Positions 4,428 to 35,100 of a stretch of DNA of 64,000 nt are shown piece by piece. The stretch is from Salminus brasiliensis (Eukaryota > Chordata > Actinopteri > Characiformes > Bryconidae): the NCBI RefSeq assembly GCF_030463535.1, contig NC_132881.1, positions 2,827,526 through 2,891,525 of the forward strand. Reading direction: 5' to 3'. Made by a program: the position numbers and the translations under genes. The notes under the pieces are model-generated. The model searched no databases. It was not told where the DNA came from and saw nothing but the letters and a program-made list of their open reading frames with translations. Within the stretch, counting starts at the first letter, position 1. Each line of letters begins with the position of its first letter.

Positions 4428-4518
4428 GCATTTACATATCAGCAACGGTCAGTAACGTGTGCAACTCACTGAATGCATTCATTAGAAGGGGTGTCCACAA
4501 ACATTTGGACGTACAGTG
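4011..4518 (+). mobile_element. Tc1/mariner-like miniature element with both ends
   Basis: The left end begins CTATATGTCCAAATGTTTG and the right end is its inverted counterpart, CAAACATTTGGACG followed by TACAGTG. The inverted ends match over roughly 40 bases, and a TA dinucleotide flanks each side, as expected for Tc1/mariner targets. The interior carries modules shared by other copies here (CCAATAGAATAGGACTCT, GCCAGGCGTGG, TTTGATTGCATTCAGC) and a (TG)n tract. No transposase frame is visible, so this is a non-autonomous element. The superfamily is inferred from the TA flanks. Confidence 0.75.
4392..4425. repeat. (TG)n microsatellite inside the miniature element
   Basis: About 17 TG units. 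CA/TG runs at the equivalent interior position occur in several copies of this element family, so the tract probably grew from a short CA run carried by the element. Confidence 0.95.
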
Positions 4519-4679
4519 TAACTCACTCAAGGAATCTCCACAAGAGGGCCTTTTGGTGCTTCACATCAGTGACACTGCGTGTCCTACTTCATATGACATA
4601 GACACTCCATATGAAGCTCAGACGACTCGTGCAGGGTCACCGGTGGGTTGTGCTGTAGTCATGGTGACTACACCCAGGT

Positions 4680-6170: not shown

Positions 6171-6189
6171 TAACCATCTGAAGAGCTAC

Positions 6190-6734
6190 ACTATTTGTCC
6201 AAATGTTTGCGGACACCCCTTCTAATGAAAGCATTCAGCTACTTTTGGTTGCACCTGTTGCTGACACAGATGTGCAAATGCACACACACTCACACACACA
6301 CAGCATGTCTAGTGCATGTAGGACTTTCTGGAGCAGACAAATATTAACCTGTTGGCACCATCCTGGCTAACGGCAGGCGTGGGCTAGAGGGGTATGAAGC
6401 CCCCCAGCAGCATTGAGCCGTGGAGGAGTGGAGGAACTGTGTTCTCTGGAACAACTGATGGATGGTGGTGCTCCATTCAGTACTTTTGGGATGAGTTGGG
6501 GATGATAAGGTGAGATGGTGACCATCCAAAATCCTAACCCTCCCTACCATGCTCGTCGCTGAATGCAATCAAATCCTCACAGCTCCTCCAAAATCTAGTA
6601 GAAAGCTTCTACTTCTTTCCTGGACAGTAGAGACAGTTACGCCAAGAAAATCAGGATCAACACTTTTTTAATTCGCTTGATGTCAGAAGAAGCAATGAAG
6701 GAGCTGGTGTCCCAATACTTTTGTCAATAGCGTG
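6190..6734 (+). mobile_element. Tc1/mariner-like miniature element, complete
   Basis: Left terminus CACTATTTGTCCAAATG and right terminus CTTTTGTCAATAGCGTG are imperfect inverted repeats of about 30 bases. TA lies immediately outside each end (6188-6189 and 6735-6736). Interior modules include CCAGGCGTGGGCTAG, CCCCCCAGCAGCATTGAG and TTGATGTCAGAAGAAGCAAT. At 545 bp with no transposase frame it must be mobilised in trans. It is the best-preserved full-length copy in the window. Confidence 0.8.
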
Positions 6735-7039
6735 TAGCTGGTTTATGGTTTAGATTTCTCAGTATCAGCATCAGAACCTACTCTGGACAGTGGTACTGGT
6801 ACACGTTTAGACTTGTTAAGAGCCTAAGTGGCTTCATCCCAGCCTTTTCTTGCAGAGCTCCATTAGCGCTTCACTAACCGGGCTTGAGAGCAACGTTAAC
6901 GTGCTGTGACAGGGCAGCCTACCGCTCGCATCACATCATTCATTATAAATGGACCATGATTACTCTCGTTTCAGCAGTGAGGGGAAATGAGTTCAGAAAT
7001 CTCAGGCCCATTAAAGAGCAAGGGAAGAGAGGTGGCCCC

Positions 7040-7314
7040 ACACTCACAGTTCCTCCGCTGCTCCACAGCTCAATTCCTGGGGGGCTTTATAGCTCTCTAT
7101 AGACGCCTGTCATTAGGCAGCATGATGCCTGTAGGTTCATGTAGTTTATCTGCTCCAGAGGGTCCTATTCTATTGGCAGTACTTCTCTGAAAGGACTAGA
7201 CATGCAGTGTGTGAGTGTGTGTGCATTTGCACGTCTGTGTCAGCAACGGGTGCCACTTAAGCAGCTGAATGCTTTCATTAGAAGGGGTGTCCGCAAACAT
7301 TTGGACGTATAGTG
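7040..7314 (-). mobile_element. Truncated Tc1-like miniature element, inverted
   Basis: The segment ends at the family terminus CAAACATTTGGACGTATAGTG and contains GGAGCAGATAAAC on the complement and the CCTATTCTATTGGCAG module. It runs opposite to the copy at 6190-6734. The opposite terminus is absent. Confidence 0.65.
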
Positions 7315-10993: not shown

Positions 10994-13900
10994 TTAGGCC
11001 TCGTCACCCTCTCTCTCCGAGCTCCACCTGAACCTTCGTCTCTTGGTCTCTGAAAAACAGAAGCGCCGTCAGGACCAAAGACGTACAGCTGGAAGGTGCC
11101 AGATCAAGCCAGGCTGGGCTCCGACTGGTTTACCTTCAGTCTTCTCGTGCTCCGCTGCGGACAGCCGCCATATCCGGGTCACGCCCGCCAGCTCGTCCTT
11201 CTGGTCTCCTATTGGACAGAAGAAGAAGCTGACGGTCAGCAGGACCGGATCATTGGTACAGGTGGGAGGTTAAAAGGTGGGCGGGGCTTGCCTTGGTTTG
11301 GGAAGCGGAGTTTCGTGCGCTCCTTGAGGGACAGGACTTTACTCTTGTAGGTGGAGGATCTCAGCGCGGGCTCCGGTTCTGTGGCTGCTGAGGTCACTTC
11401 CACTTGCCTGTGACGGCGGGACCTAGAAGCCTGACACACAAGTACAGGTCAAGTCAGGAGAACCTGACTTCCTACGTAGGATTTAAGAGATTAGGGAGCC
11501 ACTTACATTTTTCTATAATAGTGTTCTAGATAGTGCTCCAGGGTAGGCAATAGTGATGAGGGGACCATCTGCTTTTCTCCATGTAACAGTGTTCTAGATA
11601 GTGCTCCAATGTAGGGAATAGTGATTAAAGGGCCTTTTCCTTTTCCCTATAATAATGTTCTAGATAGTGCTCCAATGTAGGGAATAGTGATTAAAGGGCC
11701 TTTTCCTTTTCCCTATAATAATGTTCTAGATAGTGCTCCAATGTAGGGAATAGTGATTAAAGGGCCTTTTCCTTTTCCCTATAATGATGTTCTAGATAGT
11801 GCTTCAATGAAGGGAATAGTGATTAGAGAGCCTTTTACTTTTCCCTATAATAGTGTTCTAGATAGTGTTCCAATATAGACAAGAGTGATTAGGGGACCAT
11901 TTGCTTTTCCCCATGTAATGGTGTTCTAGATAGTGCTTTAATATAGGCAATAGTGTTCAGGGTACTATTTACTTTTCCATAGAATAGTATTCTAGATAGT
12001 GCTCCAATGTAGGAACCAGTGATTAGGCAACCATTTACTTTTCCCTATTATAGTGTTCTAGATAGAGAGAACGCTCCAATGCAGGAATAGGTGATTAGTG
12101 GACTTTTTGCTTTTCCCTACTTAGAACGATATTATAGGGAAAAGCACATAGTCCTCTAATCACCTATTCCTGCATTTGAGCACTATCTAGAACACTACTG
12201 TAGGCAATAGTGTTATAGTGCTTAGGGGACGATTTGCTCTTCCCTTTAAGTGTTCTAGATAGTGCTCAGGAACCAGTGATTAGGGAATCATATACTGATA
12301 CTGAAACTATCCACTGGACCTAATTAGGAGATACTGAGGAGATACAAGGGTTCTCCACGACCCTGCATGCGATGTTGTTATTTTGACCCTCAGCACAGTA
12401 AGCAGACGAGGGCGGAACCCTGGCATGTATAAGGCCTAGATAGCAGAATTCACTGCAGTGTTTAGAGCTGCCATGACGTGACTTACCTCCACAGCCTGTC
12501 CATAAGAGCGGGATTTGATGGATTCCAGGAGCCGAGCTCGGCGGGAACTCTGGATGGCAGAAACACTCAGAGTTACACACACACACACACACACACACAA
12601 ACTTAAGTGTTTAACAAATCCCACCTCCTCCTGACTTGAGGTTCCTTCTCCTGCAGCTCGGTCACTCTCAGCACTCTGACTGTCAAACTCCTGCAGAGAA
12701 AGAGACACACACACGGACAAACACATGAGACAGTGACCCCCAGAGCCGTTCATATTAGCCCCACCAATCACTATTCCCTACATATGAGCATTATCTAGAA
12801 CACTATTATAAGGAAAAGATAACTGTCCACTAATCACATTTCCTTCATTGGATAACTATCTAGAACACTTTTATTTATATATATATATAGCAAAACTACT
12901 CTACATTGGAACACTATCTAGAACATCATCATATAGAAAGAGCAAAGAGTTCCATAATCACTACTAACTATATTGGAGCAATATCTGGAACAATATTACA
13001 GGATAAAGTAAATGGCTTCCTAATCATTCATTCCTACATTTCAGCACTATCTAGAACACTATTATATAAAAAAATGGCTAATAAATTGTTATTACCTGCA
13101 TTTGGAATAATATCTAGAACACCATCACCAAGAAAAGCTAATACATTACCTACATAGAAGCACTATCTAGAATGCTATTATAGCAAAATGCAAATGTCCA
13201 ACTAAATCACTACTCTACACTGGAACACTATCTAGAACATTAATAAAGGGTGAGAAAAAAAAACATTGCCCTAAATCACTATTCCGTTCAATGAAGCACT
13301 ATCTAGAACATCATTATACCTGGAACAATATTATAAGGAAAAGTAAATGGCTTCCAAATCACTCATTCCTACATTTGAACACCATCTAGAACACTATTAT
13401 ACCAAATTAAAAATTGCCAGCATTTTTGCTAGCAACAATGTCTAGAACACCCATTCCAGGAAAAGCGAACAGTCCCCTAATCATATTACCTACATAGAAA
13501 ACTATAATAGAGGGAAAAATAGTCCCCTAATCACTACTACCTAGATAGGAGCACTATCTAGAACACTATTGTAGGGAAAAGCAATTAGTCCCCTAATCAC
13601 TATTCCCTACATTGGAGCACTATCTAGAACACTAAACCAGAAAAAAAGCAAATATTTCCCTAATGACTATATTCCTGACATTGGAGCCCTATCTAGAACA
13701 CTGTTATAGCAAAAAGCAAATGGCCTCTTAAATCACTATTTCCTACATTGTAGCACTAGCTAGAACACTGTTGTATGGAACTCCTTTTCTCTATTGCCTA
13801 TAATGGAGCACTATCTAGAACACTGTCATAGGGAAAGGCACTTACAGAGTGGTTCTGCTGCCAGTTGTAGTACGAGACCACAGCGCCACGCAGTTTGGGC

Positions 13901-15960: not shown

Positions 15961-16200
15961 TTTTTTTGCTTTTTTTTTTTTTTTAAGTAATATTTGTTAT
16001 GATTTCGTCTGTTTTAATTATTATAATGTAATTTGTTTTTTGAAAAATGTAATAAATAAATTATTAAATTATTAATAATATTACATGAATATTTGGACAT
16101 GTTTTCCAATAAGAAGCAACAGCAAGAGATACTTTCAAATAATTAATATTATATATATATATATATATATAGTGATATTCACAACAGCCTATAAGCAGCA
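15960..16200. other. AT-rich spacer with (AT)n tract
   Basis: A T-run, AT-rich sequence and a short (AT)n at about 16150-16170 separate the snapc1 promoter from the large inverted-repeat element. No gene is visible. Confidence 0.6.
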
Positions 16201-17776
16201 TTTCTCCAGCCTGGGGATTGGTCGATTAGATGGCACTCAAAAACTGGTGTGGATTTGTGGGCGGGGCATCTTCTACCTGTATTTCCCCTCTAACAGCAGC
16301 CATGCTTATTACTGCACCTTCACAACCAGCCTGTAAAGAACTGCTCAGGAACACAGCTATCATCACCTCCACCTTCAAGTCTGTTTACACCAGTGATCTA
16401 AACCGGATTAGAGGAGCAGCAGCAGATCTCAGAACATCGTCTTAGAAGAACAGCTCCAGAGGAAGATCAGCAGTGAAACCAGGTGAGTTCCTATCAAAAC
16501 TCTGCTCTTCTCATCACACTGATTTAGAGAAGGATGTGATGTGTGCTCTCCTCTTACAGAAAACTACCAACCATGGCAGGCAAACCCCAAATCTACCTGC
16601 TTTAGCTCCAGATATCAGTGTGTTGATCCTCCTGCTGAAGAGTCTTTCAGCCACTGCTTTCATTCATTTAGAGGAGATCAGCTTCAGCTGTGAGACTGGA
16701 GCTCCACTCGTCTTCAGTCTGCACCAGTGTTGTTCTAGGACTGTCCTCCAGCTGCTGGACACCTGGTGGCCGGTGCTGGTAGTGCAGATGGAGTTGACTG
16801 GTATCTTCTCAGGCTGAGGCTGTGTGTGCTGCTGTTGGTGTTGCTCCACCTGCTTCATTGGACGTATCTCCTCTGTAGAAGTGCTGTCAGGCTTGTTTTG
16901 GGTTGGTTCAGGAAGAACAAGGTTGGGCTTATTGTGAGTTCAGTAATGGACTAAGCGAGCTAGCTTAATCAGACAGTGGTCCAGAGACCCTGTCCGGAAA
17001 GGAAGGTCCTGGACAAGTGGTCAGACACTACTTTACAGGGTGAAGTTTTTAGCCGTTTAGCTCCATTCACCCCCAGTCATTGAGGACTGGCTCGCGGGCT
17101 CCCCCTGGCGTTCTGCAGCCATCTGCTGTCTTCATACAGTCGGACTATGAAGTCTCTCAGAACAAGCAGAGTCTGATTATTACAGTGTTTACTATTTTGC
17201 TGAACTTGGCCAAAAAGGAAGCCATCAATTAAAGCATAAAATGTAAATTTAAAAATAATCTGAATATTGATATTAAACTTTATATAAACACTTTATTAAA
17301 ATGTTAAATATATCGAGAAAGAGGGGAATGTAATCTTAACTGTCAACAGAACGGAAAAAGATTAATATAGACATTTTGTAATTTCATTCCGTTATCTGTG
17401 ACCTTTTTGACCATATTCAGAAAAAATATTCAGATCATAAAAAAATTAAAATATATACAATAAATATTACAAATATATAAAGCTAATAATTATCTTTTAA
17501 GGGAACTCAGTCTAAAAAAATGAGTATATCATGGCAATTTTAATTTAAGGTAAAGAACAAGTGTAACAACTTGTACAACAGTGATGATATGCAAAGATAA
17601 AAATATATATATATATGTATAATATAACTAACATGGTGGTCACTATCAAATCAAGCATAATTTTGTCAGATCACCTGAGACCTGAAACAAGACAGAATGA
17701 ATAAAAAATAAAAATCTAAGTAAAAATGTTACCGAACCCTCATTAATAAAAACAAATAAATAAATAAATAAACAGT

Positions 17777-17780
<4 letters not shown>

Positions 17781-17812
<32 letters not shown>
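17781..17812. repeat. (TTA)n microsatellite
   Basis: About ten TTA units inside the AT-rich, unpaired part of the left arm. Confidence 0.95.
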
Positions 17813-17813
<1 letters not shown>

Positions 17814-18082
17814 GTCATTTTTATCGTAACTTTCAATTTTGGGGCATTTGTATTGGTTTATCTATCATGACAATATTGATTCTGTGTAAAGAACAAGTGC
17901 CAGATTCAAGGTTTTTGCGCAACAGCTATGATAAAGTGCTGAGATATATATATATATATATAATATTATTTTTTTTAAGGAAACAAGGCTATCTAACAGA
18001 TATTTGGGAAATTTATAAATGGAAGTGTTCAGCTGGTGTGCACTGTAACAGATGAGGATATGGCTATGAGAGAGTGTAAAAT

Positions 18083-18390
18083 GCAGCTGTGGCTCAGCGC
18101 TTAGAGCGCTGGGATATCGATAACAGGGTTGTGGGTTCGATTCCTGGGCTCGGGAAACTGCCACTGTTGGGCCCTTGAGCAAGGCCCTTTACCCTCTCTG
18201 CTCCCCGGGCGCTGGACTTGACTGCCCACCGCTCTGGGTGTGTGTGTGTACTCACTGCCCCTAACACGTGTGTGTGTGTGAGTGTGTGTTCACTACCAGA
18301 TGGGTTAAATGCGGAGGACACATTTCACTGTACAGTCCACACTGTACAGTGACGAATACGTGCACCTTTATCCTTTATCCTTATCCTATT
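18083..18390 (+). mobile_element. tRNA-derived SINE
   Basis: The head is tRNA-like with A-box-type TGGCTCAGCGCTTAGAGCG and B-box-type GGTTCGATTCC. It is followed by the body module CCCTTGAGCAAGGCCC, a (TG)n stretch, CACTGTACAGTCCACACTG and a TTTATCC-type simple tail. The head has the RNA polymerase III promoter boxes expected of SINEs. It is not called as a tRNA because it does not fold into a full cloverleaf with an acceptor stem. A partner copy sits at the mirrored place in the right arm. Confidence 0.8.
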
Positions 18391-19666
18391 CATAAATAAT
18401 AATAATAATAAATAAAAATGATTAGCATAGAACATAGAAAGTCCAGTGTATATATATATAAATATATATAAATGCGCCCTTGATTGGATCACTAAGGTTC
18501 TTCGCTCTCTTCCTCACAGAATGAAGTCCCGTAGGTGTCTGGGGTGGTAGAGGCGCTGACAGGCCTTCTTTGCCAGGATGTTGATGTGGCAGGGGCATGA
18601 CAGATCCTGCGAGACTCCAAGGTAGGCCTACCTGATAATTACATTAGCACATTCAAACAATACATGGACACGACCTCATTATTGCTCTTGATAAAGCCTC
18701 TGAGCGGCCAGGGACGTATTCTCCTAATAGACTGTAGGGGCTGCAGTCGAGGGTCTTGACCACCAGAGGTCTCCACAGAAAGTCAGCCCATGTGATCTTA
18801 GAGTTCCCACGTTGTTTCTACCAGGGCTAATGCTACCATATGAGCTAATTTCACTTCATTCCCCAGCATAGAGTCTCACACACACACACACAGCTAGATA
18901 CCTACAGTCCCTTCTGACATATTAATTAAAGTGTGGTCAAGTCCGTTCATCGTTTGTCTGATCTCTGTTTTAAAAGTCTGAATGTTTTCTCTCCTAAACT
19001 GTTTCAGGTCGTGACCCCGAGCTGACGATGTCCAGAGAACCACATCACGCTTCCTTCAGTCCACTGAGACCCTGCAGTGGAACCAGTGTCCAAACCAACA
19101 GACCACCTTTCCCACACCGTCCTGACCGACCCTCTGCTTTCTGGACTCTCCTTGGTCCCTTCCTGCAGTGTGTGGGTCAGTGCTGAAGATGCAGAGACTG
19201 AAAGACTGTAGAGAAAGTGTGTGTGTGACTGAACTGCTGATCTAACAGCTCAGAGTGGGAGAGTCCTCCTTTCAGCTTTCCAGTCCTCCTAAAGTGTGGA
19301 GAGCAGCTGGAGGTGGACTTTCAGCTCTCAGCCTGTGAGTCCTCCAGTCAGGAGCATCTCCACCGCAGATCCGGTGATGAGCTGCTGAGCCTCAGCTCTC
19401 CTCCATCTGACACTGCTTTTACTGAGAGAGGAGGGAGGAGGAGGAGGAGGAGGAGGGGTAGAGAGATTTGTTAACAGATTCCCAGAAGTCCTAGAGTGCT
19501 AATTTGCATATTTATATGTAATTAACCAATCAGGAGCAGCCAAGGTCAATGAGGCTTTAAATACCCTGCGATGTGACTAGTGTTCTCGATGATGGTGAGG
19601 ACCAAAAATAAGGGTTTTCTCCACCGCGGACGAGAAGACTAGTTCAGCAGAATAAGTAAAAATCAG

Positions 19667-22600
19667 CAGGTTGAGATCAGCTTGGAATAAACTGCAGATT
19701 TTTTTTACATTCTATTTATTCTTTTTTATTTTGAAACTCACTTGTCTGATTCTGCTCTTGGAGCACTGACTCCTGTCTCTCTCAGAGAGCTTCAGGTGAA
19801 GCCTTTGCTTTCTCAGTCAGGTCTGGACTGTGTCTGGAGCCACACTGGACCAGCACTGCTTCCAGCCTTCACCCACACTGGGTAGATACTGAGAAAGGGT
19901 AAATCTGGACAGGTTAGCTATTACAGCCAAAGCCAGATTTATAACAGAGCACTGTTCTGCAGCTGTAAGTATGTAAGAGCTAGTTTTCTGGTTCATGGTG
20001 GATTCTTTAGCTCTAATTACTGAAGCTCCTCCCACTCCACCATGAAACTGAAGGTCTGGTTAAACAGCCAATAGAAGCTGAGTTCTGGGTCTTTTACTGT
20101 TTTCACTTATTTCTGTGAAAAAGAGGCTGAACAGCCAAAACACCAAAGTCAGATGCTTCTAACAGCTGGTTTCTGATCAGACTTCCAACAAAGTCCAGCC
20201 TGAAACATCTGCAACAAGCAGTTTTGGTCAGATAAGGGTCAGACTTTGCAGCAGTAAGTATAATAGCACTACTGTTTTAATGAAGGGTAGCTTCGTTATC
20301 CAACACCTGGAGCACAGTTAAGGATCCGCCTCCCACCTCCACCATTAATGTGAAGAACAGAACACAGTCTAGAACACTGGGAGCAGAACCTCCAGCTCCG
20401 GTTATTTATTTATTATTTGTTTATTATATTTAATATACATCTTCTCTTTATTTTATGTTCATGAAGCACAGCTTCTCACTAAGGACGGCTCCAGCATTGT
20501 CCGGTTGTGGTCATTGAGCTTGGAGCAGGACGTCTGTCGCTAGGCTTTGCATTGATGGTTTGTGGTTGGTGGGTGAACTCAGGTCTTTCCAGAAGTTCAG
20601 GGTTCTGTGAATGTGGTCGTGAGCAGCTAAATGAAGGAAGTCAGTGATACAGGCAGCAGCGTTTAACCCAGTCTGATCCTGTGGGCAGTTCAGCCTTGTT
20701 GAGTTCAGCCATGTTTCCCATTGGCTCCTGGTGCTAGGTATTTGCATATTGGGTGTGGCTTCATTTCTGACCTACCGTCACTGTGTTAACGTTCCTCCCA
20801 GGCTACCTTCTGTTGGGTTTAGGCAGCTGTTTGTCTGTGCTTTTGTGTATATGATGGGGTGTATACATTTTTTTGGATTTTTATGAGCTGAGTTAGTGTG
20901 AGTTTTTTTTATAATGTGAATAGTTTCATTTTTAATGGTTTATTTATAGTCTGCTTAGTTAGGTGAAACCCTGCTTTAGAAGCATTAATAGCTGACCTAA
21001 GTTCTCATTAAGTAACTGTTTTTGGATCACAAGCAGAAAACATGTAACTCTTGAAAGACTTCTTCTACAATAAACACCATCAGTACAATCAGACCACACA
21101 TCCATAAAATCAGAGAACCCAACAAGAACCAGCAAAAACCTCCAAAACTAACAACCGTCCAAGAGAAGCTAGGCTGAGAGTGCTTGTCTACACGCTGACG
21201 GTAAGTAAGGCCTGTGAGACACACCCAGTATGCAAATATGTGCTGCAAGGAGCCAATAGTATCAGTACAGTGAAGCCTTAGTTTGCTGCTGCAGCAACGC
21301 TCCTTTACAGTCTCTTTTGAGGGTCGCTATGTCCCCCCCTCACTGCTGGTCTCTCCTGGCTACATGAATTGTTAAAGACAGTTTCTAAATGTGTTCTTAT
21401 TGGTCCCTGTTTGCACCAGCTAGCTAATGTTTACTTCACCTTGAGTTCACAGCTCTGTCCGTCTCTCTGTGTATTTCACTCTCTGCTGTGATACACTTTC
21501 AAACTAGATCCAAAATCCCACCTCCTGACCTGTCGATTGACCTGATGTGCTTTTTGAAACTCTGCCTTCACAAAGCTGGTGAGTAGAGCTCCTCATGTAG
21601 GGGGCAGTATAGCTCTTATTGGTCTGCGTGAGTCCGGGAAAGGAGCTGAAGCCGGACAGCTTGTTGAATCCTGATTTTCTATGATAGACAGCCACAATAA
21701 ACTCGACTGGGTTTCGTTACTTCACAGTTTGTGGGTTGGTATTAGAAGGCGCTCCAGAACTCACATCGTTCCTATTGGCTCCTGGTAGGACTAGTATTTG
21801 CATACTGGGCGTGTACTTGCCATTTGCTCTTAGTGCTGCAAACCCTCCCAGACTGGCCTTATTGGGCTTAGGCTTGCAGCTCAAATATTGAACTGAATAG
21901 TGTGATCTACTGGTCAGGCCTGGGCCGATCCTCCAGGTCACACACCGATAGGTAGATCAGAGGTGTTACCGTCAATGCTAAGCCTAGTGATCGAGAGTTC
22001 TTAAAGGTGGTCCTATGTGCTGTAGCTTTTCTGCTGAGCTGTTTGTCATGCCTTGTGTGTTGGTTGTGTGTTCGGTATCTGCTGTTTAGAGAGTGTGTGT
22101 AGCGGAGTTTGTAAATAAAGCATCAGCAGAAGGTGGAGTTTGATTATTTTCTGAACTCCAGGGGGCGCTGTAGGTGTTGGGTAATGAACCTACCATGAAT
22201 GATGAAACTAGTTCTGTCAGAGTCACTGATTTAGACCAGAAAGCTTGCTCAAACCTGTCTGGGGTTTTCCAACTGTTTTGCTGTTAGTTAGTCTTATGGG
22301 TTCATCAATAGCTCTAAAGCCTAGAAACAGCACCTGGATTCCCCAGAAGAAATCTGGGTCAGGTGGAACAGTAGATACAACACAGTGGAAACATGGGCTG
22401 GCTGAATATGTTGACCTTTATTAGACTACAGTAGGACTGAGTTCTGTCACGCGATTGATGCCAAACAAGCAGACCTAAATGATGCATTGCTCCTATATAA
22501 CACAGTGCTCTAGGCTTCACATTGACGGTGGGTTGGGAGGAGGAGCTGTACAGTTCAGTTCAGTTCAGTTCAGGCGTCGGTTCTGATCTACCATCAATGA

Positions 22601-22932
22601 TGAAACTAGTCCTAACATACTGACAGCTGCAGAACACAGGGCTGTTATAAATTTGGGCTCAGTTTTGCTGCCCAAATTTACCTCTTCCTGTTCTCCGCCC
22701 TGTGTGGGTGCAGGCTCAGGCCTTGGGAGTCACTGAGCTTATGTTGTCTCTGTGATCCATCAGGCCTGGCTGAGAACGAGGTGGCTTCATCTAAAAGGCC
22801 TGCAAGATGAGGCAGGAGATGGAGGTGAGGCTGTGCAGATGTGAAGGGTAAAAGACAGATGTGGGCTCGGCACTGACCAAAAAAATAAACCGAAATTTAT
22901 GAGCAGAAAAAAAACCCCCAAAAACTCCCACA
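19667..22932 (+). mobile_element. Large inverted-repeat element, copy 1, centre
   Basis: The loop between the two arms. Most of it (19670-22000) matches the centre of copy 2 (29728-31950) in the same orientation at high identity. It carries a sub-repeat, TTGGCTCCTGG followed by TATTTGCATA, at about 20726, 21770 and, inverted, 21235. Open frames such as 20511-20747 and 21027-21248 are short, are conserved only as part of the repeat, and match no family I know. Confidence 0.7.
22155..22172 (+). promoter_or_regulatory. CTCF-like motif in the element centre
   Basis: ACTCCAGGGGGCGCTGTA resembles the CTCF core (CAGGGGGCGCT). It sits in the part of the centre that has no match in copy 2. Confidence 0.35.
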
Positions 22933-23892
22933 CTGATTTTTACTTATTCTGCTGAACTAGTCTTCTCGTCCGCGGTGGAGAAAACCCTTATTTTTGGTCC
23001 TCACCATCATCGAGAACACTAGTCACATCGCAGGGTATTTAAAGGCTCATTGACCTTGGCTGCTCCTGATTGGTTAATTACTTATAAATATGCAAATAAC
23101 CACACTGGGACTTCTGGGAATTTCTTAACATATCTCTCTACCCCCCTCTCCCTCTCCACCCCCACCCCTCCCTCCTCTCTCAGTAAAAGCAGTGTCAGAT
23201 GGAGGAGAGCTGAGGCTCAGCAGCTCATCACCGGATCTGCGGTGGAGATGCTCCTGACTGGAGGACTCACAGGCTGAGAGCTGAAAGTCCACCTCCAGCT
23301 GCTCTCCACACTTTAGGAGGACTGGAAAGCTGAAAGGAGGACTCTCCCACTCTGAGGTGTTAGAGCAGCAGTTCAGTCACACACACACTTTCACTACAGT
23401 CTTTCAGTCTCTGCATCTTCAGCACTGACCCACACACTGCAGGAAGGGACCAAGGAGAGTCCAGAAAGCAGAGGGTCGGTCAGGACGGTGTGGGAAAGGT
23501 GGTCTGTTGGTTTGGACACTGGTTCCACTTCAGGGTTTCAGTGGACTGAAGGAAGCGTGATGTGGTTCTCTGGACATCGTCAGCTCGGGGTCACGACCTG
23601 AAACAGTTTAGGAGAGAAAACATTCAGACTTTTAAAACAGAGATCAGACACATGATGAACGGACTTGACCACAGCTTCATTAATATGTCAGAAGGGACTG
23701 TAGGTATCTAGCTGTGTGTGTGTGTGTATGAGACTCTATGCTGGGGAATTAAGTGACATTAGCTCATATGGTAGCATTAACCCTGGTAGAAACAACATGG
23801 GCTGACTTTCTGTGGAGACCTCTGCGGGTCAAGACCCTCGACTGCAGCCCCTACAGTCCATTAGGAGAATACGTCCCTGGCCGCTCAGAGGC

Positions 23893-24370
23893 TTTACCAA
23901 GAGCAATGAAGCCAAGCATCTACTGACGGCGTCCTGATAATCAGTCCCAGTCAGAGCCGGCCCAAGGCATACTCGACTTACACGGCTGCTTAGGGCCCCA
24001 GCGCCACCAGAGGCCCCCCAAGAGCACTAAGATATGATAAAAAATATAAAATTTCTAAATAACATTGAATTATAAACTAAATGATATTACACAGGTAAAA
24101 GATTTTATAGATTTTTATATTAATTAATTTTTTAAATAGTTGTCACACTAATACTAGCTTATTTAATTTCTGCTGTTGGCTGCTGCCACTGTTGGGCAAA
24201 TGCAGAAATGAGCCGCTTGAGAGGTTGATAAAGGCCCGGGCGCTTCAGCGTAGTGCACAGTCTCTCTCTGTGGGCAAGTGGCTCTAAGATAATTAAAATA
24301 AAAAGCCAGCTCCAGCTTTCTTTTTCTGGCCCAGGGAGAAAGGGAATTGTGTTACTCTATTACCAAGAGC
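23893..24370. mobile_element. Insertion in the right arm flanked by a 14-base direct repeat
   Basis: TTACCAAGAGCAAT occurs on both sides of a segment of about 460 bp, whereas the left arm carries the site once in equivalent, uninterrupted sequence. The insert includes GCCGGCCCAAGGCATACTCG and AGGCCCCCCAAGAGCAC. A target duplication of this length is typical of target-primed retrotransposition, but I cannot name the insert. Confidence 0.6.
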
Positions 24371-24664
24371 AATAATGAGGTTGTGTCCATGTATTGTTTG
24401 AATGTGCTAATGTAATTATCATGACAGGCCTACCTTGGAGTCTTGCAGGATCTGTCATGCCCCTGCCACATCAACATCCTGGCAAAGAAGGCCTGTCAGC
24501 ACCTCTACCACCCCCGACACCTACGGGACTTCATTCTGTAAGGAAGAGAGCGAAGAACCTCAGTGATCCAATCAAGGGCGCATTTATATATATTTATATA
24601 TATATACACTGGACTTTCTATGTTCTATGCTAATCATTTTTATTTATTATTATTATTTATGAAT

Positions 24665-24908
24665 AGGATAAGGATAAAGGATAAAGGTGCACGTATTTGT
24701 CACTGTACAGTGTGGACTGTACAGCGAAATGTGTCCTCCGCATTTAACCCATCTGGTAGTGAACACACACTCACACACACATGTGTTAGGGGCAGTGAGT
24801 ACACACACACACCCAGAGCGGTGGGCAGCCAACTCCAGAGCCCGGGAATCGAACCCACAACCCTGTTATCGATATCCCGGCACTCTAAGCGCTGAGCCAC
24901 CACTGCCT
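24665..24908 (-). mobile_element. tRNA-derived SINE, inverted partner copy
   Basis: This is the same SINE as at 18083-18390 in opposite orientation, at the mirrored location. The body between the B box and CCCACCGCTCTGG is shorter by about 70 bases. Because both arms carry it at the same place, it was present before the arms were duplicated. Confidence 0.8.
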
Positions 24909-26649
24909 GAGTTAGGGGACCTGTCGATAATAGGTGCCTTCCTCACACTTCTGCACATCTGTTCAAAATGTAAGAAAATGATGTTAAAACATCCCTCTGT
25001 ATTTAAAAGGGAAAATTCATTTTTGAAATCCCATTTTTATTTAAATCATATTATTTATATAACTTTATTTATGATCCTTTCTAATAATTTATTATATATA
25101 TATATATATATATTCACTAAATGGACAGAATTGTCTGCATGTGCTGCTCTGTGCAGTACTGGGGGAGTGTAGTAGTCAACATCATATCTAAAAGGGGTCA
25201 GCTGACCCATTCCCCCAATTTCCGCTCCTTCTCTCCATTCCTCCATTCCTCCACCTTCTTCCGAGGTAGAAGAGGACCAGTACTGAAGGAGGAGCAGGGG
25301 CAGTAGTTTCTGGACGCAGTGTACGCCGGTGTGTAGCCCATGGAACGATGAAGCAGCTGGTGCTGAGGTGGTGGTATATGAGGGGCCCCCAAATGAAGGT
25401 CTGCTTAGGACCACATAATGGCCTGGCCTGGCCCTGGTCCCCACCTTCCCCCTTAAAGAGAATCTCTACTGTTACTAAAACATGTCTGACATGTTGAGAG
25501 CACTTCTACAGGGGAAGCTGATCTACTGAGGCAGGTGGAGCAACACCAACAGCAGCTCCTCCAGCTCCTAACGCTGTGTTCAGGCGGACGAGGGGGAGCC
25601 AGTAAACGGTCGGAAGTCCCGCCCCCTAACCGAGCTTTCAAATGCATGTTTATTTATTTATTTTATATTTATTTATTTATTTGAACTAAAACACACAACG
25701 AATGTTGTTTTAAACGACGTTAATATTAGAATTACTGTAAATGATTAATTTATAAATTATACATTTTACCGTTGAAGAACTGTTCGGCCATGTGGAGCTT
25801 TTTTTATTTGATAAAATAAATATATCAATAATATATCAATACGACTTCGCTGGCTGTTCAAAGGGGTAATTTAGCTCTACAGCTGCTGGGACAAATGGTA
25901 TTTCCCAGTTTCCAACTCCACTCGAAGGCCATCTGCACTACCAGCATCAACCAGCAGGGGCCCCACAGCACTACCTCCGTTCACTACCATGAAGACTGTA
26001 TTTTCTACAACAACGTTTTTACCACCTCTAAAGTTCATTTCAGAAGGTTCTCATAACATTAGTGTAGTAAAAATACAGCAGATTATTAATGAAGAACCAC
26101 ACAGCAGCTCCAACCTGAGCTCCAACCTGAGCTCCAGCTCTCAGTTCAGTGTGGAGCTCCAGTCTCACAGCTGAAGCTGATCTTCTCTAAATGAATGAAA
26201 GCAGTGGCTGAAAGACTCTTCAGCAGGAGGATCAACACACTGATATTTGGAGCTAAAGCAGGTAAATTTGGGGTTTGCCTGCCATGGTTGGTAGTTTTCT
26301 GTAAGAGGAGAGCACACATCACATCCTTCTCTAAATCAGTGTGATGAGAAGAGCAGTGTTTTGGTGGGAACTCACCTGGTTTCACTGCTGATCTTCCTCT
26401 GGAGCTGTTCTTCTAAGACGATGTTCTGAGATCTGCTGCTGCTCCTCTAATCCGGTTTAGATCACTGGTGTAAACAGACTTGAAGGTGGAGGTGATGATA
26501 GCTGTGTTCCTGAGCAGTTCTTTACAGGCTGGTTGTGAAGGTGCAGTAATAAGCATGGCTGCTGTTAGAGGGGAAATACAGGTAGAAGATGCCCCGCCCA
26601 CAAATCTACTCCAGTCTGTTGATGGACCTCTAATGGTGCCTTAATGTTC

Positions 26650-26724
26650 TATCAGAATTATGATGTTCTCATATCTTCTGTTCCTCTGTAGTCCAGTTGG
26701 GTACCAGGTGAGGGAAACTGTATA
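26650..26724. other. Spacer beyond the right arm
   Basis: Short unique sequence between the large element and the next Tc1-like fragment. No feature is seen. Confidence 0.4.
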
Positions 26725-27200
26725 TATGGACAAAAGTATTGGGACACTTGCTCATTCATTGTTTCAGCTGAGACTAAGGGTATTGAAAAGAGTTGATCCT
26801 GCTTTTGTTGGAGTTACTGTCTCTTCCGTCCAGGGAAAAAGACTTTCTACTAGATTTGTGAGGAGCACTGCTGTGAGGACTTGATTGAATGCATTCAGCC
26901 TCAAGAGCGTTAGTGAGGTCAGGATCCCCACCTTATCATCTCCAACTCCCCAGCTCATCCTACTAGTACAGACAGGGTGGAGCACCATCCATCATTTTAG
27001 AGTACACACTTCTTCCACTGCTCCACAGCTCAATGCCTGGGGGGCTTTACACCCCTCTAGCCCACGCCTGGCATTAGGCAGCATGGTGCCAATAGCTTCA
27101 TGTTGTTTATCTGCTCCAGAGAGTCCTATTCTATTGGCAGTACTTCTTCTCTACAGGGACTAGACAAGCTGTCTGTGTCAGCAGTGGGTGCAACTTAAAC
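26725..27200 (-). mobile_element. Tc1-like miniature element, truncated
   Basis: One terminus is intact: TATGGACAAAAGTATTGGGA begins inside a TATA run. Family modules follow (CCTGGGGGGCTTTACA, GCCTGGCATTAGGCAGCATG, CCTATTCTATTGGCAG). The opposite terminus is missing. Orientation is inverted relative to the copy at 6190-6734. Confidence 0.65.
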
Positions 27201-27640
27201 TAGACTGTAGCCTATCTGCTTCTCTGTGTACTTTCTGCCTCCTTTCACCCTGTTCTTCTATGGTCAGAGAACCAGATGGACTGCAGTCTGGGATTACAGC
27301 ACTGCACAGGGCTTCTATATGGTCATGAACAATGGGTGTAGATGCAAGGATGGATGGTGGTGGTTTTAATGTTATGGCTGATTGGTGTACATACTCACAA
27401 AAATCAGCACTGAAACACTTTGCCCCGACTTGTACGACGGTGGCATTTTCTGGGAAGCTGGACCACCAGCAAATTCAGCAGCTGGATGAATCTGTTGACC
27501 TGGTCCAAGTTTCCCAAAATTGTCTTAGTGTGGACATCTTTTTACTGTTCGGACAGTCTGCTCAGATCTCCTTCAGAGAGAAGATGCTCCTGGGGAGCCC
27601 CAGCCCCATCTTGCCCAAGCTGATAGACCAGTTAGCTGGT
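27200..27640. other. Spacer with a fragment of the CATAACATTAAAACCAC repeat
   Basis: TTTTAATGTTATGGCTGATT at about 27364-27383 is the inverted end of the dispersed repeat seen at 9765. The open frames at 27332-27652 show no recognisable domain. Confidence 0.45.
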
Positions 27641-27654
27641 TCAGCAGCATAGCC

Positions 27655-27994
27655 TATGTCCACATTTTTGTCTATTCCTTCTGTAGAAGTACTGCCAATA
27701 GAATAGGACTCTCTGGAGCAGATAAACACAAGCCAGGCGTGGACTAGAGGGGTATAAAGCCCCCCAGAATTGAGCTGTGGAGCAGTGGAATGATGGATGT
27801 CGCTCCATTCAATACTCGCTGAATGAAGTCAATCAAATCCTTACAGCAATCCTCCTCCAAAATCCAAAAAAGCTTTCTTCCCTGGACTGTAGAGACAGTT
27901 ATTCCAACAAAAGCTGGATCAACTCTATTTAAAACCCTTGATTTCAGAAGAAACAATGAAGGGGCAGGTGTCCCAATACTTTTGTCATTACAGT
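27655..27994 (+). mobile_element. Tc1-like miniature element, internally deleted
   Basis: The right terminus CTTTTGTCATTACAGTG is present, preceded by TTTCAGAAGAAACAATGAAG and the CCAGGCGTGGACTAG module. The left end has lost its usual sequence after TGTCCACATTTTTG. It lies directly beside the left arm of element copy 2. Confidence 0.65.
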
Positions 27995-28039
27995 GTTGAT
28001 TACCAGCTTGAAGGACTGTTGTGTCCCCTCTCCCCAGTT

Positions 28040-28932
28040 GCAAGTGGGGTTCCTCCACTTGATCCAGGTGGGAGAGGAGCAGAAGATCTTAGAACAAGAT
28101 GGCAGAAGAACAGCTCCAGATGAAGATCAGCAGTGAAACCAGGTGAGATCCCAACAGACCTCTGCTCTTCTCATCAGGCTGGTTTAGAGAAGGACGTGTC
28201 TTTCTAAGCGAACTTTGGAAAAGCTTGTAGATGAGCCTCAGAATCAGCTTGTTTTAGCTCTAAGCGCGGCTGTGTTGATCTTCCTGCTGAAGACAGTCGT
28301 TAGCCAGGAGGAGCTTCAGCTGTGAGACGGGAGCTCCACACTGAGCTGAGAGCAGGAGGGTGAAGCTCAGGTTGGAGGGCGTTCATCCCCCAAACCTCCT
28401 GACGTGAAGCTGAGAGTCCTTACAAAGTCTGAAATCTTCCCCAGTCTGCTTCTAGGCCTGTTCTTCAGCTGCTGGTAGTGCAGATGGAGTTGACTGATAT
28501 CTTCTCAGGCTGAGGCTGTGTGTGCTGCTGTTGGTGTCGCTCCACCTGCTTCATTAGACATATCTCCTCTGTAGAAGAGCTGGGTCTGTTCAGGAAGAGC
28601 ACAAGGTTCTAAAGGTTCTTGTAGGTGAGGTTCTCCTGAGGCCGATTGTTCATAGAATAGTTACTTTTCTCTGTTTGTGGTTTTTGGTGATGAGACAGTG
28701 CCAGCAGGGAGGTGTTGACTCCATGGGCTTAAAGGCTGTAGCTAAGAGACCTGACCACCAAGGGTCCCCACAGGGTCAGTGTGAATGGAAGCCGTAGGAA
28801 AGGAAAGGATGGAAAGTCCTGAAGGTTAAGGTGCTGAGTGTAAATCACAGGCTGCTGAGCTGGTGTCCAGATGGGTGTGTAGGAGTGGACGTTAAGCTAA
28901 TATAGTAGCCTGACCACTGATCTTTTCTTTGT

Positions 28933-28972
<40 letters not shown>

Positions 28973-29728
28973 CAGTAATTCTCTCTGTTCATCGTGTGTC
29001 TGATTTTAAAAGTCTGAATGTTTTCTCTCCTAAACTGTTTCAGGTCGTGACCCCGAGCTGACGATGTCCAGAGAACCACATCACGCTTCCTTCAGTCCAC
29101 TGAAACCCTGAAGTGGAACCAGTGTCCAAACCAACAGACCACCTTTCCCACACCGTCCTGACCGACCCTCTGCTTTCTGGACTCTCCTTGGTCCCTTCCT
29201 GCAGTGTGTGGGTCAGTGCTGAAGATGCAGAGACTGAAAGACTGTAGAGAAAGTGTGTGTGTGACTGAACTGCTGATCTAACAGCTCAGAGTGGGAGAGT
29301 CCTCCTTTCAGCTTTCCAGTCCTCCTAAAGTGTGGAGAGCAGCTGGAGGTGGACTTTCAGCTCTCAGCCTGTGAGTCCTCCAGTCAGGAGCATCTCCACT
29401 GCAGATCCGGTGATGAGCTGCTGAGCCTCAGCTCTCCTCCATCTGACACTGCTTTTACTGAGAGAGGAGGAGGAGGAGGAGGGGGTGGAGAGAGAGGGGG
29501 AGGAGGAGGAGGAGGAGGGGGGGTAGAGAGATTTGTTAACAGATTCCCAGAAGTCCCAGAGTGCTAATTTGCATATTTATATGTAATTAACCAATCAGGA
29601 GCAGCCAAGGTCAATGAGTCTTTAAATACCCTGCGATGTGACTAGTGTTCTCGATGATGGTGAGGACCAAAAATAAGGGTTTTCTTCACCGCGGACGAGA
29701 AGACTAGTTCAGCAGAATAAATAAAAAC
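28040..29728 (+). mobile_element. Large inverted-repeat element, copy 2, left arm
   Basis: This arm matches the left arm of copy 1 in the same orientation, strongly from about 28985 to 29728 (TGACGATGTCCAGAGAACC through TTCAGCAGAATAA) and in blocks from 28100 to 28600. It lacks the SINE. A (TG)n tract lies at 28934-28971. The outermost end seen in the other arms is missing here. No domain-bearing frame is present. Confidence 0.7.
28934..28971. repeat. (TG)n microsatellite
   Basis: About 18 TG units in the left arm of copy 2. Confidence 0.97.
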
Positions 29729-32272
29729 CAGCAGGTTGAGATCAGCTTGGAATAAACTGCCGATTTTTTTTAATTTTCATTTTTTTGGAAAGTCATTCGT
29801 CTGATTCTGCTCTTGGAGCACTGACTCCCGTCTCTTCTCCTGCAGCTGCTGCTGCCGGAGTCTCAGAGAGCTTCAGACTGGACCAGCACTGCTTCCAGCC
29901 TTCACCCACACTGGGCAGATACTGAGAGAGGGTAAACCTGGACAGGTTAGCTTTTACAGCTAAAGCCAGATTTATAACAGAGGACTGTTCTGCAGCTGTA
30001 AGTATGTAAGAGCTAGTTTTCTGGTTCATGGTGGATTCTTTAGCTCTAATTATTGAAGCTCCTCCCACTCCACCATGAAACTGAAGGCCTGGTTAAACAG
30101 CCAATAGAAGCTGAGTTCTGGTTCTCTTGCTGTTTTCATGTATTTCTGTGAAAATGAGACTGAACAGCCAAAACACCAAAGTCAGATGTTTCTAACATCT
30201 GGTTTCTGATCAGACTTCCAACAAAGTCCAGCCAGAAACTTTGGTCAGATAAGGGTCAGACTTTGCAGCAGTAAGTATAATAGCACTACTGTTTTAATGA
30301 AGGGTAGCTTCGTTATCCAACACCTGGAGCACAGTTAAGGATCCGCCTCCCAACTCCACCATTAATGTGAAGAACAGAACACAGTCTAGAACACTGGGAG
30401 CAGAACCTCCAGCTCCGGTTATTTATTTATTATTTGTTTATTATATTTAATATACATCTTCTCTTTATTTCATGTTCATGAAGCACAGCTTCTCACTAAG
30501 GACGGCTCCAGCTCGGTCCGGTTGTGGTCATTGAGCTTGGAGCAGGACGTCTGTCGCTAGGCTTTGTATTGATGGTTTGTGGTTGGTGGGTGAACTCAGG
30601 TCTTTCCAGAAGTTCAGGGTTCTGTGAATGTGGTCGTGAGCAGCTAAATGAAGGAAGTCAGTGATACAGGCAGCAGCGTTTAACCCAGTCTGATCCTGTG
30701 GGCAGTTCAGCCTTGTTGAGTAACACCCACATGTTTCCCATTGGCTCCTGGTGCTAGGTATTTGCATATTGGGCGTGACTTCATTTCTGACCTACCGTCA
30801 CTGTGTTAACGTTCCTCCCAGGCTACCTTCTGTTGGGTTTAGGCAGCTGTTTATCTGTGTTTTTGCATCTATGATGGGGTGTATACATTTTTTGGGGTTT
30901 TCAAGAGTTAGTGTTAGGTTTTTTTATAATGCCTATAGTTTCTTTTTTAATGGTTTATTTATAGTCTGCTTAGTTAGGTGAAACTCTGGTTTAGAAGCAT
31001 TAATAGCTGATGTTAGTTCTCATTAAGTAACTGTTTTTGGATCACAAGCAGAAAACATGTAACTCTTGAAAGACTTCTTCTGCAATAAACACCATCAGTA
31101 CAATCAGACCACACAACCATAAAATCAGAGAACCCAACAAGAACCAGCAAACACCTCCAAAACTAGCAACCGTCCAAGAGAAGCTAGTCTGAGGGTGCTT
31201 GTCTACACGCTGACGGTAAGTAAGGCCTGTGAGACACACCCAGTATGCAAATATGTGCTGCAAGGAGCCAATAGTATCAGTACAGTGAAGCCTTAGTTTG
31301 CTGCTGCAGCAACGCTCCTTTACAGCCTCTTTTGAGAGTCGCTGTGTCTCCGCCCACTCTCCACCCACTGCCCAAAGACACTCCCCCCACTGCTGGTCTC
31401 TCCTGGCTACATGAATTCTTATAGACAGTTTCTAAATGTGTTCTTATTGGTCCCTGTTTGCACCAGCTAGCTAATGTTTACTTCACCTTGAGTTCACAGC
31501 TCTGTCCGTCTCTCTGTGTACTTCACTCTCTGCTGTGATACACTTTCAAATTAGACCCAAAATCCCACCTCTTGACCTGTCGATTGACCTGATGTGCTTT
31601 TTGAAACTCTGCCTTCACAAAGCTGGTGAGTGGAGTTCCCCATGTAGGGGGCAGTATAGCTCTTATTGGTCTGCGTGAGTCCTGCGTGGGTTTCGTTACT
31701 TCACAGTTTGAGGGTTGGTATTAGAAGGCGCTCCAGAACTCACATCGTTCCTATTGGCTCCTGGTAGTGCTAGTATTTGCATACTAGGTGTGTGTACTTG
31801 CCACCTGCACCTACCGTCAGCTTGTTGCAAGGCCTCCCAGACTGGCCTTATTGGGCTTAGGCTTGCAGCTCATGGTTGGTCTGTAAATCAGGGTTGTTTT
31901 TGTGGTTTGTATCTTTTTTTATGTTAGTTTTGGTGCTGAATCCGTATCAGTAGGTTAACACAAGCTGAAAAGCTCGGACACTGCTTTGAGTAGGGGGAGT
32001 TACAAGGAGTTTAGAAAATAAAGCTACCGTAATGGATAAAACTAGTTCTGATAGGCATACGGCTTCATAAAAGGTCAGCGTTGTGTGTTGGGGGTTAGCT
32101 TTCAGCTTGAAAGGTGCATGCTGTGGGCGTTTCTGGCTCAGTGTGGTTAAATGAGAAGCTTTCTTTGAATGCATAGCTATACTACACCACTGTTAGACAC
32201 ACTCACTTAAGTGTTCATTAAAAATTATATTTAAGCTACGCTATTTCTTACTTCAGCATAGTATATTTACTG
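29728..32272 (+). mobile_element. Large inverted-repeat element, copy 2, centre
   Basis: This region is directly repeated from the centre of copy 1. It carries the same TTGGCTCCTGG plus TATTTGCATA sub-repeats at about 30738, 31235 (inverted) and 31753. Small indels distinguish the copies, for example an added AGTCGCTGTGTCTCCGCC region near 31340. No gene is recognised. Confidence 0.7.
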
Positions 32273-32472
32273 ATTCTCACTTAGCCTGCTGAGCTAGTCT
32301 TCTCAACCCTGGCAAATAAAGCTTAGCTATCCCATCTCCACCACTCTCATAGAGAACACCAGTCATATCTTAAAGCATTTAAATGATCATTGACTCTGAC
32401 TGTTTATGATTGGTTGACAAGTTGGTGTGTAACATGCAAATAAGTATGCTGGATCATAGTAAGGTGTCATGG

Positions 32473-32510
<38 letters not shown>

Positions 32511-32722
32511 CTGAAAGAAGAAAGTCCACACGTATCCACAGTCTTATAGTGTCTTTATTTTTTATTTTTTTATTGTCAGTTGACTGAAGGAACCGTCTCT
32601 GGGAATCATCAGCTCGGGGTCATGACCTGAAACAGTGCAGGAGAATTTTAAAGAGATCAGACAAACGATGGACGAAGAGTGGAGAACTGAGTCTTACTGA
32701 ACACACTTATCACCAGCCTATA

Positions 32723-32763
<41 letters not shown>

Positions 32764-32840
32764 GTGCTGTTAATCTATTAAAAGCACGTCTGTGAAATTT
32801 TGGGCGAGAGAAGAAATAAATGTGTGGCGTGTCTAGAAGA

Positions 32841-32881
<41 letters not shown>

Positions 32882-33625
32882 GGGAGAGAGAGATGAGGGA
32901 CGGAGAAAGAGAGAGATGAGGGAGAGAGAACCTTTAGAAATTTATGTTCTACTGAACTCAAGAAGATCCTCAACCCAAAACACACCTGATGTTCTAATGA
33001 TGTCTAATGAAGCAGGTGGAACTCCATCTGCACTACCAGCACCGACCACTAGGTGTCCAGCAGCTGAAGGACAGAAATTTTGGGCGGGAGAAGAAATAAA
33101 TGTGTGGCGTGTCTAGAAGAAGAACAACACTGGTGTTGTCCTAGAACAACACTGGTGCAGACTGAAGACAGCTCGAGCTCCAGTCTCACAGCTGAAGCTG
33201 ATCTTCTCTAACTGAATGAAAGCAGTGGGTGAAAGACTCTTCAGCAGGAGGATCAGCATCAGCTCCCACAATCAGAGCTGAAACAGCTCAGTCAGAGCTT
33301 CACCTGCTACCTGTGAGAAGAGCAGAGTTTTGTTGGGAACTCACCTGGTTTCTCTGCTGATCTTCCTCTGGAGCTGTTCTTCTGTCATCTTGTTCTCCAA
33401 GGCGATGTTCTTCCATCTTCTGCTCTTCTCTACTCTGGATCAGGTGGAGATTTAGATCACTGGTGTAAACAGACTTGAAGGTGGAGGTGATGATAGCTGT
33501 GTTCCTGAGCAGTTCTTTACAGGCTGGTTGTGAAGGTGCAGTAATAAGCATGGCTGCTGTTAGAGGGTGAATACGTGAAGAAGATGCCCCGCCCACAAAT
33601 CTACCCCAGTCTGAGTGACATCTAA
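32272..33625 (-). mobile_element. Large inverted-repeat element, copy 2, right arm
   Basis: The arm begins with a diverged version of the inner arm sequence (GCTGAGCTAGTCTTCTC, versus GCTGAACTAGTCTTCTC in copy 1). It ends at about 33590-33625 with CCCGCCCACAAATCTACC and CCAGTCTGAGTG, the same terminus as copy 1. Simple tracts (CT)n at 32473-32508, (TA)n at 32729-32757 and (GA)n at 32843-32878 interrupt it. AATTTTGGGCG and the bases after it, to CGTGTCTAGAAGA, occur twice, at about 32797-32838 and 33078-33119. Confidence 0.65.
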
Positions 33626-33639
33626 CTGCAGACCTGGAG

Positions 33640-35100
33640 ACTAGACTAAAGCATCAGCTTTTCTACTAGCATGCTGGTCATACTGGTCCTGGTGGTCTAC
33701 GTTGGTGAGGGTTCCCCCGTCTTTCGGAGTAGGGAATACCAGTTGAAATGTCCTACTTAGAACTCAGGAATCCCGACATCCGAAACTGACATGAATGAAA
33801 ATGGGCGGAGTCAACAACCAGTACCCAATAATAAGCTTTTTTTTGACACTGCAGGCACGTCATCTCCACCCCTTCCTGTAGCTGTCAATGTTAGGACCTA
33901 TCTTACACTGGTGTTCTGAACCTCACAGCTCTTCCTACCATAGAACTACGTCATTCCAAGAAGCCCATTCAGCGAAATGCTCAGACCAGCTGTGTTAAGC
34001 TTTTTGACCATAGAAACGCAGAGAAACCATCTCAAATCTGAAAAAAAGCTACAAGCAAAAGCTAAAAATTGTGGAAAGTTGGAAGGAAACCCCCTTCCTG
34101 CTAGTACGTAATTTCTATGATATTGCTAGCTGGTTGCTATGGTATCCCAGGTGGTTCCTTTGGTTTTGCAAAGTTCTTGCAAGGTGACTGCAACAGTTTC
34201 AGTTAAGGCAGCTGCTGTTTTGTTATTCAGTGGTTGCTAGGCAGTTGCTATGGTTGCCCAGATGGTTTCTATGGTGACTTATTAAGGTGGTTATCAAGTG
34301 GCTGATATGGTGCCCCGTGGTTGGTCGGGTAGGCGTTACTAGTGTATTTGTGTCATTGTGCCATTCGAAAGGGTGCCAAAACTTTTGCATGCCAGTTTTT
34401 CCTATGGGGGAAGAAACCCTGTGTCCGATCAAAGCGAACAAAGTGAATTTGAATACGAGCCTGAATCCCACTGATCGGTGAATTCCTGCAGCTCTTTAGA
34501 CGCGTTGTTCTTATTTCCTGTTTATATGAAGTGAATTAGAGACCTTGTTTTTTATTATTCATATTTTATTTGTAGGGTGATCAGGTGACCACATTTTTTC
34601 CTATATGTCATTAAAAGTTAAGCTTTGTTAGCTCTTCCAGTTAGCATGTTAGCATCGGGGAATCCACGTCCTCGCGATGAAACCATGTTGCTGTGGAAGC
34701 AAAAAGAGGAAACTGGGAAACTGAGATCATGAAAATATGAACACATAGGACATCCATTATCATCCAGAGTTACAGTACTGTACTGAACGGCTCAAGGTTC
34801 TTACTGAAAGGAAGAGCTTGTATAGGCCCTAAAATAGAACCCTGTGGCACTCCGCAAAATCTGAAACTAAATGGCTACACTATAGGGCTAAAAACAGATT
34901 CAATAACCAGGGGGTTAAAGGCATTGTCCAGCATGAGAGGAGGTTCTATAATAATAATAATAATTATTATTATTATATATTATTATTATTAAAAAAATAA
35001 GACGTTATTATTGGGCTGTGTGTTTCAATCATGGTTCGATAATGTGGGGCAACTGAAAGAGATGGAGATGTGAGCATTTAACCATTATGATCACAATACA
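33640..35100. other. Spacer with GGTTGCTA-type repeats
   Basis: The interval 34120-34330 holds scattered GGTTGCTATGG, GGTGGTTC and CAGTTGCTATGG motifs, a degenerate minisatellite style often seen in fish. An (AAT/ATT)n stretch lies near 34952-34990. I see no exon before the last exon of the first ISG12-like gene. Confidence 0.5.

Follow-up and report, generated by a model that had tools for sequence, protein, structure and literature searches.

How does a long inverted repeat come to have arms that are nearly identical in some places and hardly alike in others? The question is raised by an inverted-repeat locus in a 64,000-nucleotide stretch of Salminus brasiliensis DNA (contig NC_132881.1; the window, in whose positions all coordinates are given). 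The original prediction had described a 10.4-kb mirrored inverted repeat, with a second copy known by its right end. At this locus there are four old related arms, alike in sharp-edged patches, with older homology beside most of the edges. The reading that we favour, at a probability of about 0.62, is that an old inverted-repeat unit stands here in two neighbouring copies, and that gene conversion has in part replaced the sequence of one arm by that of another. The left and right arms of copy 1 are called L1 and R1, and those of copy 2 L2 and R2.

Near-identical tracts in the arms of copy 1

Self-comparison of the window returned three inverted pairs in copy 1 (reported E-value 0.0): 16225-16707 with 26634-26151 (97.1% identity), 18204-18694 with 24846-24360 (95.7%) and 18681-19666 with 23907-22933 (94.2%). 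Their order is mirrored, instead of the random order that independent dispersed repeats would have given. The predicted mirrored repeat is real in this respect; its arms, though long (about 3.4-3.7 kb), inverted and terminal, are discontinuous, since their middles (16708-18082 and 24907-26150) have diverged.

The near-identical mirrored sequence makes up two tracts, read on the plus strand in L1 and on the minus strand in R1. Tract I (16252-16707 in L1, 26606-26151 in R1) contains the longest exact inverted match, 240 bp (16252-16491 with 26606-26367). We followed identity along L1 in 80-bp steps, for which 30 shuffled segments gave a mean of 66% and a maximum of 75%. L1 and R1 were 91-100% identical over 16225-16704, and 96-100% in the five steps of 16305-16704. 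In tract II (18083-19666 in L1, 24906-22933 in R1) identity was mostly 86-100% (steps over 18065-19664), with the greater part of the tract at 96-100%, and it dropped to 62-79% past 19665. Between the tracts, the diverged middles (16708-18082, plus, and 24907-26150, minus) stayed close to the shuffled values in the 80-bp steps, and were at 34-61% in most 100-column steps of a global alignment from 16777 to about 17933. Two short matches there nevertheless beat the best of 100 shuffles (26.8 bits): 16819-16889 with 25565-25495 (78.9%, 61.1 bits) and 16751-16801 with 25969-25918 (76.9%, 39.7 bits).

The arms also carry insertions. Tract II of L1 starts with a repeat (18083-18294) that we take to be like a short interspersed nuclear element (SINE) from its tRNA-promoter-like start; it occupies the mirrored place in R1 (24758-24906), and a third relative lies at 61921-62126. 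Tract II of R1 is interrupted by a 452-bp insertion (23908-24359) found in that arm only, seen as a gap in the arm alignment and bounded by 14-bp direct repeats (23894-23907 and 24360-24373). L1 keeps the matching site uninterrupted.

The centre (19667-22932, no strand assigned) lies between the arms and is 3.3 kb long, as had been proposed, but it too is an inverted repeat, old and degenerate, and contains repeated modules. Five inverted matches in it (63-72% identity) scored 82.5, 58.3, 41.1, 36.8 and 34.0 bits, against 29.7 for the best of 100 shuffles; they include 19770-20003 with 22818-22586 (64.5%), 20720-20816 with 21257-21159 (71.7%) and 20247-20368 with 22631-22502 (63.2%), plus two shorter ones. 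A sixth inverted match in the centre, at 26.8 bits, fell under the shuffle maximum. ATTGG and ATTTGCAT motifs mark a module that occurs there three times in mixed orientation (20710-20824, 21159-21257 and 21764-21873), and is present in copy 2 as well.

Copy 2 and the shared outer ends

The second copy comprises more than the right end by which it had been known, spanning about 28034-33627, although its outer left end is missing. L2 resembles L1 from about 28034 onward, and L2 together with the shared centre occupies 28034-31872 on the plus strand. The part of copy 1 shared with it in direct orientation, tract III (18942-21883, plus), matches in two pieces, 18942-21635 with 28984-31682 (91.9%) and 21708-21883 with 31687-31872 (87.6%). 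Most 80-bp steps between L1 and L2 over 18945-21824 were at 90-100%; those at 19665, 19745, 20865, 21585 and 21665 were lower (70-82%), partly through indels. R2 (31873-33627, minus) is mostly old and diverged, with patches at its outer end that are alike to L1. L2 and R2 matched each other in inverted orientation at 80.1% over 28053-28178/33449-33310 and at 61-69% in three further stretches, each above 100 bp, and two four-arm alignments gave 71.3% and 56.4% for this pair. R1 and R2 were 54.5% identical in their inner arms (four-arm alignment). By these alignments, the arms of copy 2 as a whole are mostly old and diverged.

A terminal sequence common to both ends of copy 1 and the right end of copy 2, as originally proposed, was confirmed. 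GATTTGTGGGCGGGGCATC is found exactly at 16252 (plus), 26588-26606 (minus) and 33583-33601 (minus); with one further match of 3 mismatches at 48914 this makes 4 matches, where 100 shuffles averaged 0.01. L1, R1 and R2 are identical over the 117 bp of 16286-16402, as read off the alignment. Beyond GATTTGTGGGCGGGGCATC the three arms have a 27-bp end in common, whose pairwise scores were attained in 1, 0 and 0 of 300 shuffles; this includes the outer terminus of R1 (26607-26634, minus). Outside that end L1 is unlike both R1 and R2 (285 and 262 of 300 shuffles did as well). L1 and R2 were 85-100% identical in the 80-bp steps over 16225-16464 and 96% at 16625, and self-comparison gave 93-95% over 16621-16741 and 16741-16795. 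Just beyond the R1 end, 38 bp (26662-26698) are weakly like a piece (16401-16438, 76%, E 0.025) of the interior of 16252-16707, the block termed A; this is possibly a further degenerate piece, or it may be chance.

Tract edges and probable gene conversion

At this locus, high-identity tracts end sharply within older, diverged homology. Five edges were tested by Fisher's test, with p values from 9.7e-7 to 4.8e-25. At the inner edge of tract II, 148 of 150 aligned bases agree inside and 69 of 136 outside; at the inner edge of tract I the counts are 145/148 and 40/68. The outer edge of tract I separates 149 agreeing bases of 149 from the outer terminus of L1 (16226-16251, plus), which shares an old ancestry with the ends of R1 and R2 and agrees with R1 at 20 of 27. 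Between L1 and L2, the left edge has 135/138 inside and 54/123 outside, and the right edge 137/149 and 39/101. The GC content and CpG of the tracts had no clear pattern.

Because diverged homologous sequence adjoins the tracts in register, the patchwork points to conversion in an existing old inverted repeat and not to a recent insertion of new inverted blocks. We infer from the sequence that gene conversion made the near-identical patches. Under our favoured reading, an old inverted-repeat unit in two adjacent copies would have supplied the four arms, which would have diverged to roughly 55-80% identity. Pieces would later have been re-copied between arms by non-reciprocal recombination: between L1 and R1 in two tracts, between L1 and L2 in one long tract, and between the outer part of L1/R1 and R2. 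In favour of this also stand the SINE-like repeat at matching places in both arms of copy 1, the 117 bp common to L1, R1 and R2, and the contrast of L1/L2 (91.9%) with the inner arms of R1/R2 and L2/R2 (54.5% and 56.4%). The unit itself may have begun as a transposable element or as a local inverted duplication. In the block termed C (18942-19666), a three-way comparison over 715 columns finds R1 differing from the other two arms at 23, L1 at 5 and L2 at 5, with 1 column where all differ; 12 of the 23 R1-odd columns lie in or beside a GGA-rich run. Across the inner edge of tract II, L1 and L2 agree and R1 departs from them.

Several observations weigh against this reading. The likeness of L1 to R2 falls to 79% at 16465 and 69% at 16545, within the outer patch. 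The tract II steps between L1 and R1 are uneven as well, with 66% at 18145, where R1 is without part of the SINE-like repeat, and 86-89% at 18065, 18625, 18785 and 19425. The edges were chosen from the alignments and then tested, on sites that are not independent, so the p values are too small, though the drops themselves are plain. The R1-odd columns prove no direction of copying, because the C block of L2 may itself derive from L1. Finally, the same patchwork could be left by recombination with copies at other places in the genome.

Is the unit a mobile element?

The absence of a transposase-like frame noted in the original prediction was borne out at Pfam sensitivity: a six-frame search of this locus alone (14700-34800; E up to 0.1 in one scan and 0.05 in others) found no transposase. 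The matches below the cut-off within the unit, to DMAP_binding (0.0069 and 0.023), DcrB (0.0036) and Cpta_toxin (0.019), were taken as chance, as were those to CCD97-like_C and NPR3 just left of it, also below the cut-off. A PDB search at E up to 1 gave no match for the open frame at 33300-33653 (minus). No target duplication was found between the L1 and R1 ends at 6, 8 or 10 bp (the best direct repeats were reached by 235-285 of 300 shuffles), nor between the L1 and R2 ends (28-281 of 300 as good, the 28 being at 10 bp), and the other 46.6 kb of the window held no further copy of the unit. Exact-pattern scans of the viral_contigs and genome_contigs collections gave no hits either, but a control repeat present at several places in the window also went unmatched there, so these scans are uninformative on fish DNA.

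These results support only in part the proposal that the locus may belong to an undescribed family of long-armed non-autonomous DNA elements. Its mirrored layout, common terminus and lack of a transposase are borne out, but no target duplication was found, and the arms, which are old and diverged with likeness confined to tracts, do not form a plain pair of terminal inverted repeats. Two insertions of a long-armed non-autonomous foldback-like transposon family, with mixing among its members across the genome that made every copy a subfamily mosaic, would account for the 27-bp end of the three arms, beyond which L1 has nothing in common with the other two, and for long inverted arms with nested insertions and no coding capacity. 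Neither end pair has the expected target duplication, however, the window yielded no third copy, and there is a weak likeness between the outer right flanks of R1 and R2 (matched by 8 of 1000 dinucleotide shuffles, and by 3 of 300 shuffles in another test), which independent insertions would not predict; we consider this account rather unlikely. That same flank likeness, which is suggestive only, would suit a different origin, in which one palindromic intergenic unit was duplicated locally in tandem, was never mobile and underwent conversion afterwards. Such a duplication would also account for two adjacent copies in the same orientation. The likeness is nevertheless weak and does not continue past the unrelated repeat between the copies once that repeat is excised (at three cuts, 60, 196 and 454 of 1000 shuffles did as well), blastn at E up to 1 gave no match between spacer and right flank, and the ends coincide in three arms, as they would in a mobile unit. 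An origin of this kind seems improbable to us.

Two further accounts are selection and artefact. If the near-identical patches were functional sequence held by selection while the rest drifted, the 117 bp near the end on which L1, R1 and R2 fully agree would be expected, as would the retention of two motifs in these arms, a GC-box-like one (at 16259 in L1) and the splice-donor-like AGGTGAGT (16481, plus; 26377 and 33346, minus). Both are pattern matches only, and they sit in homologous copies, so that they are not independent. Against selection, the tracts contain a SINE and AT-rich simple sequence, R2 has diverged over the C block, and neither protein nor Rfam searches matched the unit at curated thresholds; there is very little chance that this account is right. 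The other account is an artefact of assembly, from a fold-back read or from collapsed and duplicated haplotypes. Since even the tracts differ by about 3-6% from arm to arm, and the arm sequence between tracts has diverged, a fold-back is unlikely on the sequence, and an insertion confined to one arm also speaks against an artefact, an account to which we give almost no credence.

Comparison with known systems

We return to conversion between the arms of an old repeat. In the excerpted text of PMC8981503 and PMC7023750, mammalian sex-chromosome palindromes undergo arm-to-arm gene conversion and have arms more than 99% alike. The present locus would resemble them, as there described, in having inverted arms kept alike by conversion, whereas it is patchy, small-scale and non-coding, and also links two adjacent copies. 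It is best called a fresh example of a known process, conversion between repeat arms. If this is right, 17 kb of intergenic sequence preserve a record of several distinct exchanges, between inverted and between direct repeats, the tract lengths and edges of which can be read directly in non-coding DNA between two ordinary genes. Arm identity alone would be a poor guide for dating or classifying such elements, since it varies among the tracts here.

Foldback-type transposons (FB, Galileo, Tetris) offer a second comparison. Excerpts of PMC4168063 give Galileo of Drosophila terminal inverted repeats of 4.2-4.7 kb, with tandem repeats and transposable-element insertions in the arms and internal sequence recruited into them; those of PMC4079207 describe a middle domain without protein-coding capacity in Tetris, also of Drosophila. 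According to the same excerpts, target duplications measure 7-8 bp in Galileo (PMC4168063) and 8-10 bp in Tetris (PMC4079207). The likeness lies in kilobase inverted arms, internal modular repeats, nested insertions and, in most copies, no coding sequence. These elements are described with target duplications and dispersed copies; here no target duplication was found, and the arms have diverged outside the tracts. It is a tentative and rather doubtful idea that the locus belongs to an undescribed foldback-like family of fish, whose adjacent copies form a conversion network within and between copies that spreads even a SINE and keeps the 117-bp outer end with its motifs. If such a family is dispersed, fish would have in it a long-armed element with a mobiliser still to be sought. 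A narrow literature search on long inverted repeats in zebrafish found no paper, from which we make no claim of unpublished status, and sequence strings of the locus were not found in the papers searched.

Possible function and setting of the locus

Protein, Rfam and motif scans gave no evidence of a function for the unit. ATTTGCAT occurs 10 times in the 17.4-kb unit and 13 times in the remaining 46.6 kb, counting both strands; these too are pattern matches, in homologous copies that do not count as independent. Long double-stranded RNA through read-through transcription, as originally suggested, would be possible in principle, with a longest exact duplex of 240 bp. No RNA family reached the Rfam gathering thresholds in the window, with two sub-threshold matches only in 16100-33800 (E 0.54 and 0.99), and ARAGORN found no tRNAs.

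Left of the unit lie two snapc1 exons on the minus strand (15712-15584 and 15080-14877; per-frame Pfam E 5.3e-10 and 1.7e-22, both above the cut-off), and right of it a MARCKS-family exon (44677-45360, minus; Pfam E 1.5e-9, above the cut-off). Because these genes stand on either side, we read the locus as vertebrate intergenic DNA. The window is rich in repeats. The one separating copy 1 from copy 2 (26720-27996, edges approximate, no strand assigned) is unrelated to the unit and has its own inverted ends, 26729-26899 and 27986-27818 (81.9% in self-comparison); this copy at 26.7-28.0 kb is internally inverted, and its end motif is GGACAAAAGTATTGGGACAC. Other members of its family in the window lie at 4049-4520, 6183-7314, 49903-50906 and 60161-60202. 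A long CAGTAG-based array fills 1-1712, where a leucine-rich open frame of 508 codons on the minus strand is a repeat artefact. Beside the snapc1 exons, a 66-bp tandem repeat forms two oppositely oriented arrays (11476-12119 and 12754-13840), about 66-76% alike in the longer inverted matches. A 42-bp minisatellite is found twice, at 53152-53315 and 62916-63087, about 9.7 kb apart and 87-90% alike.

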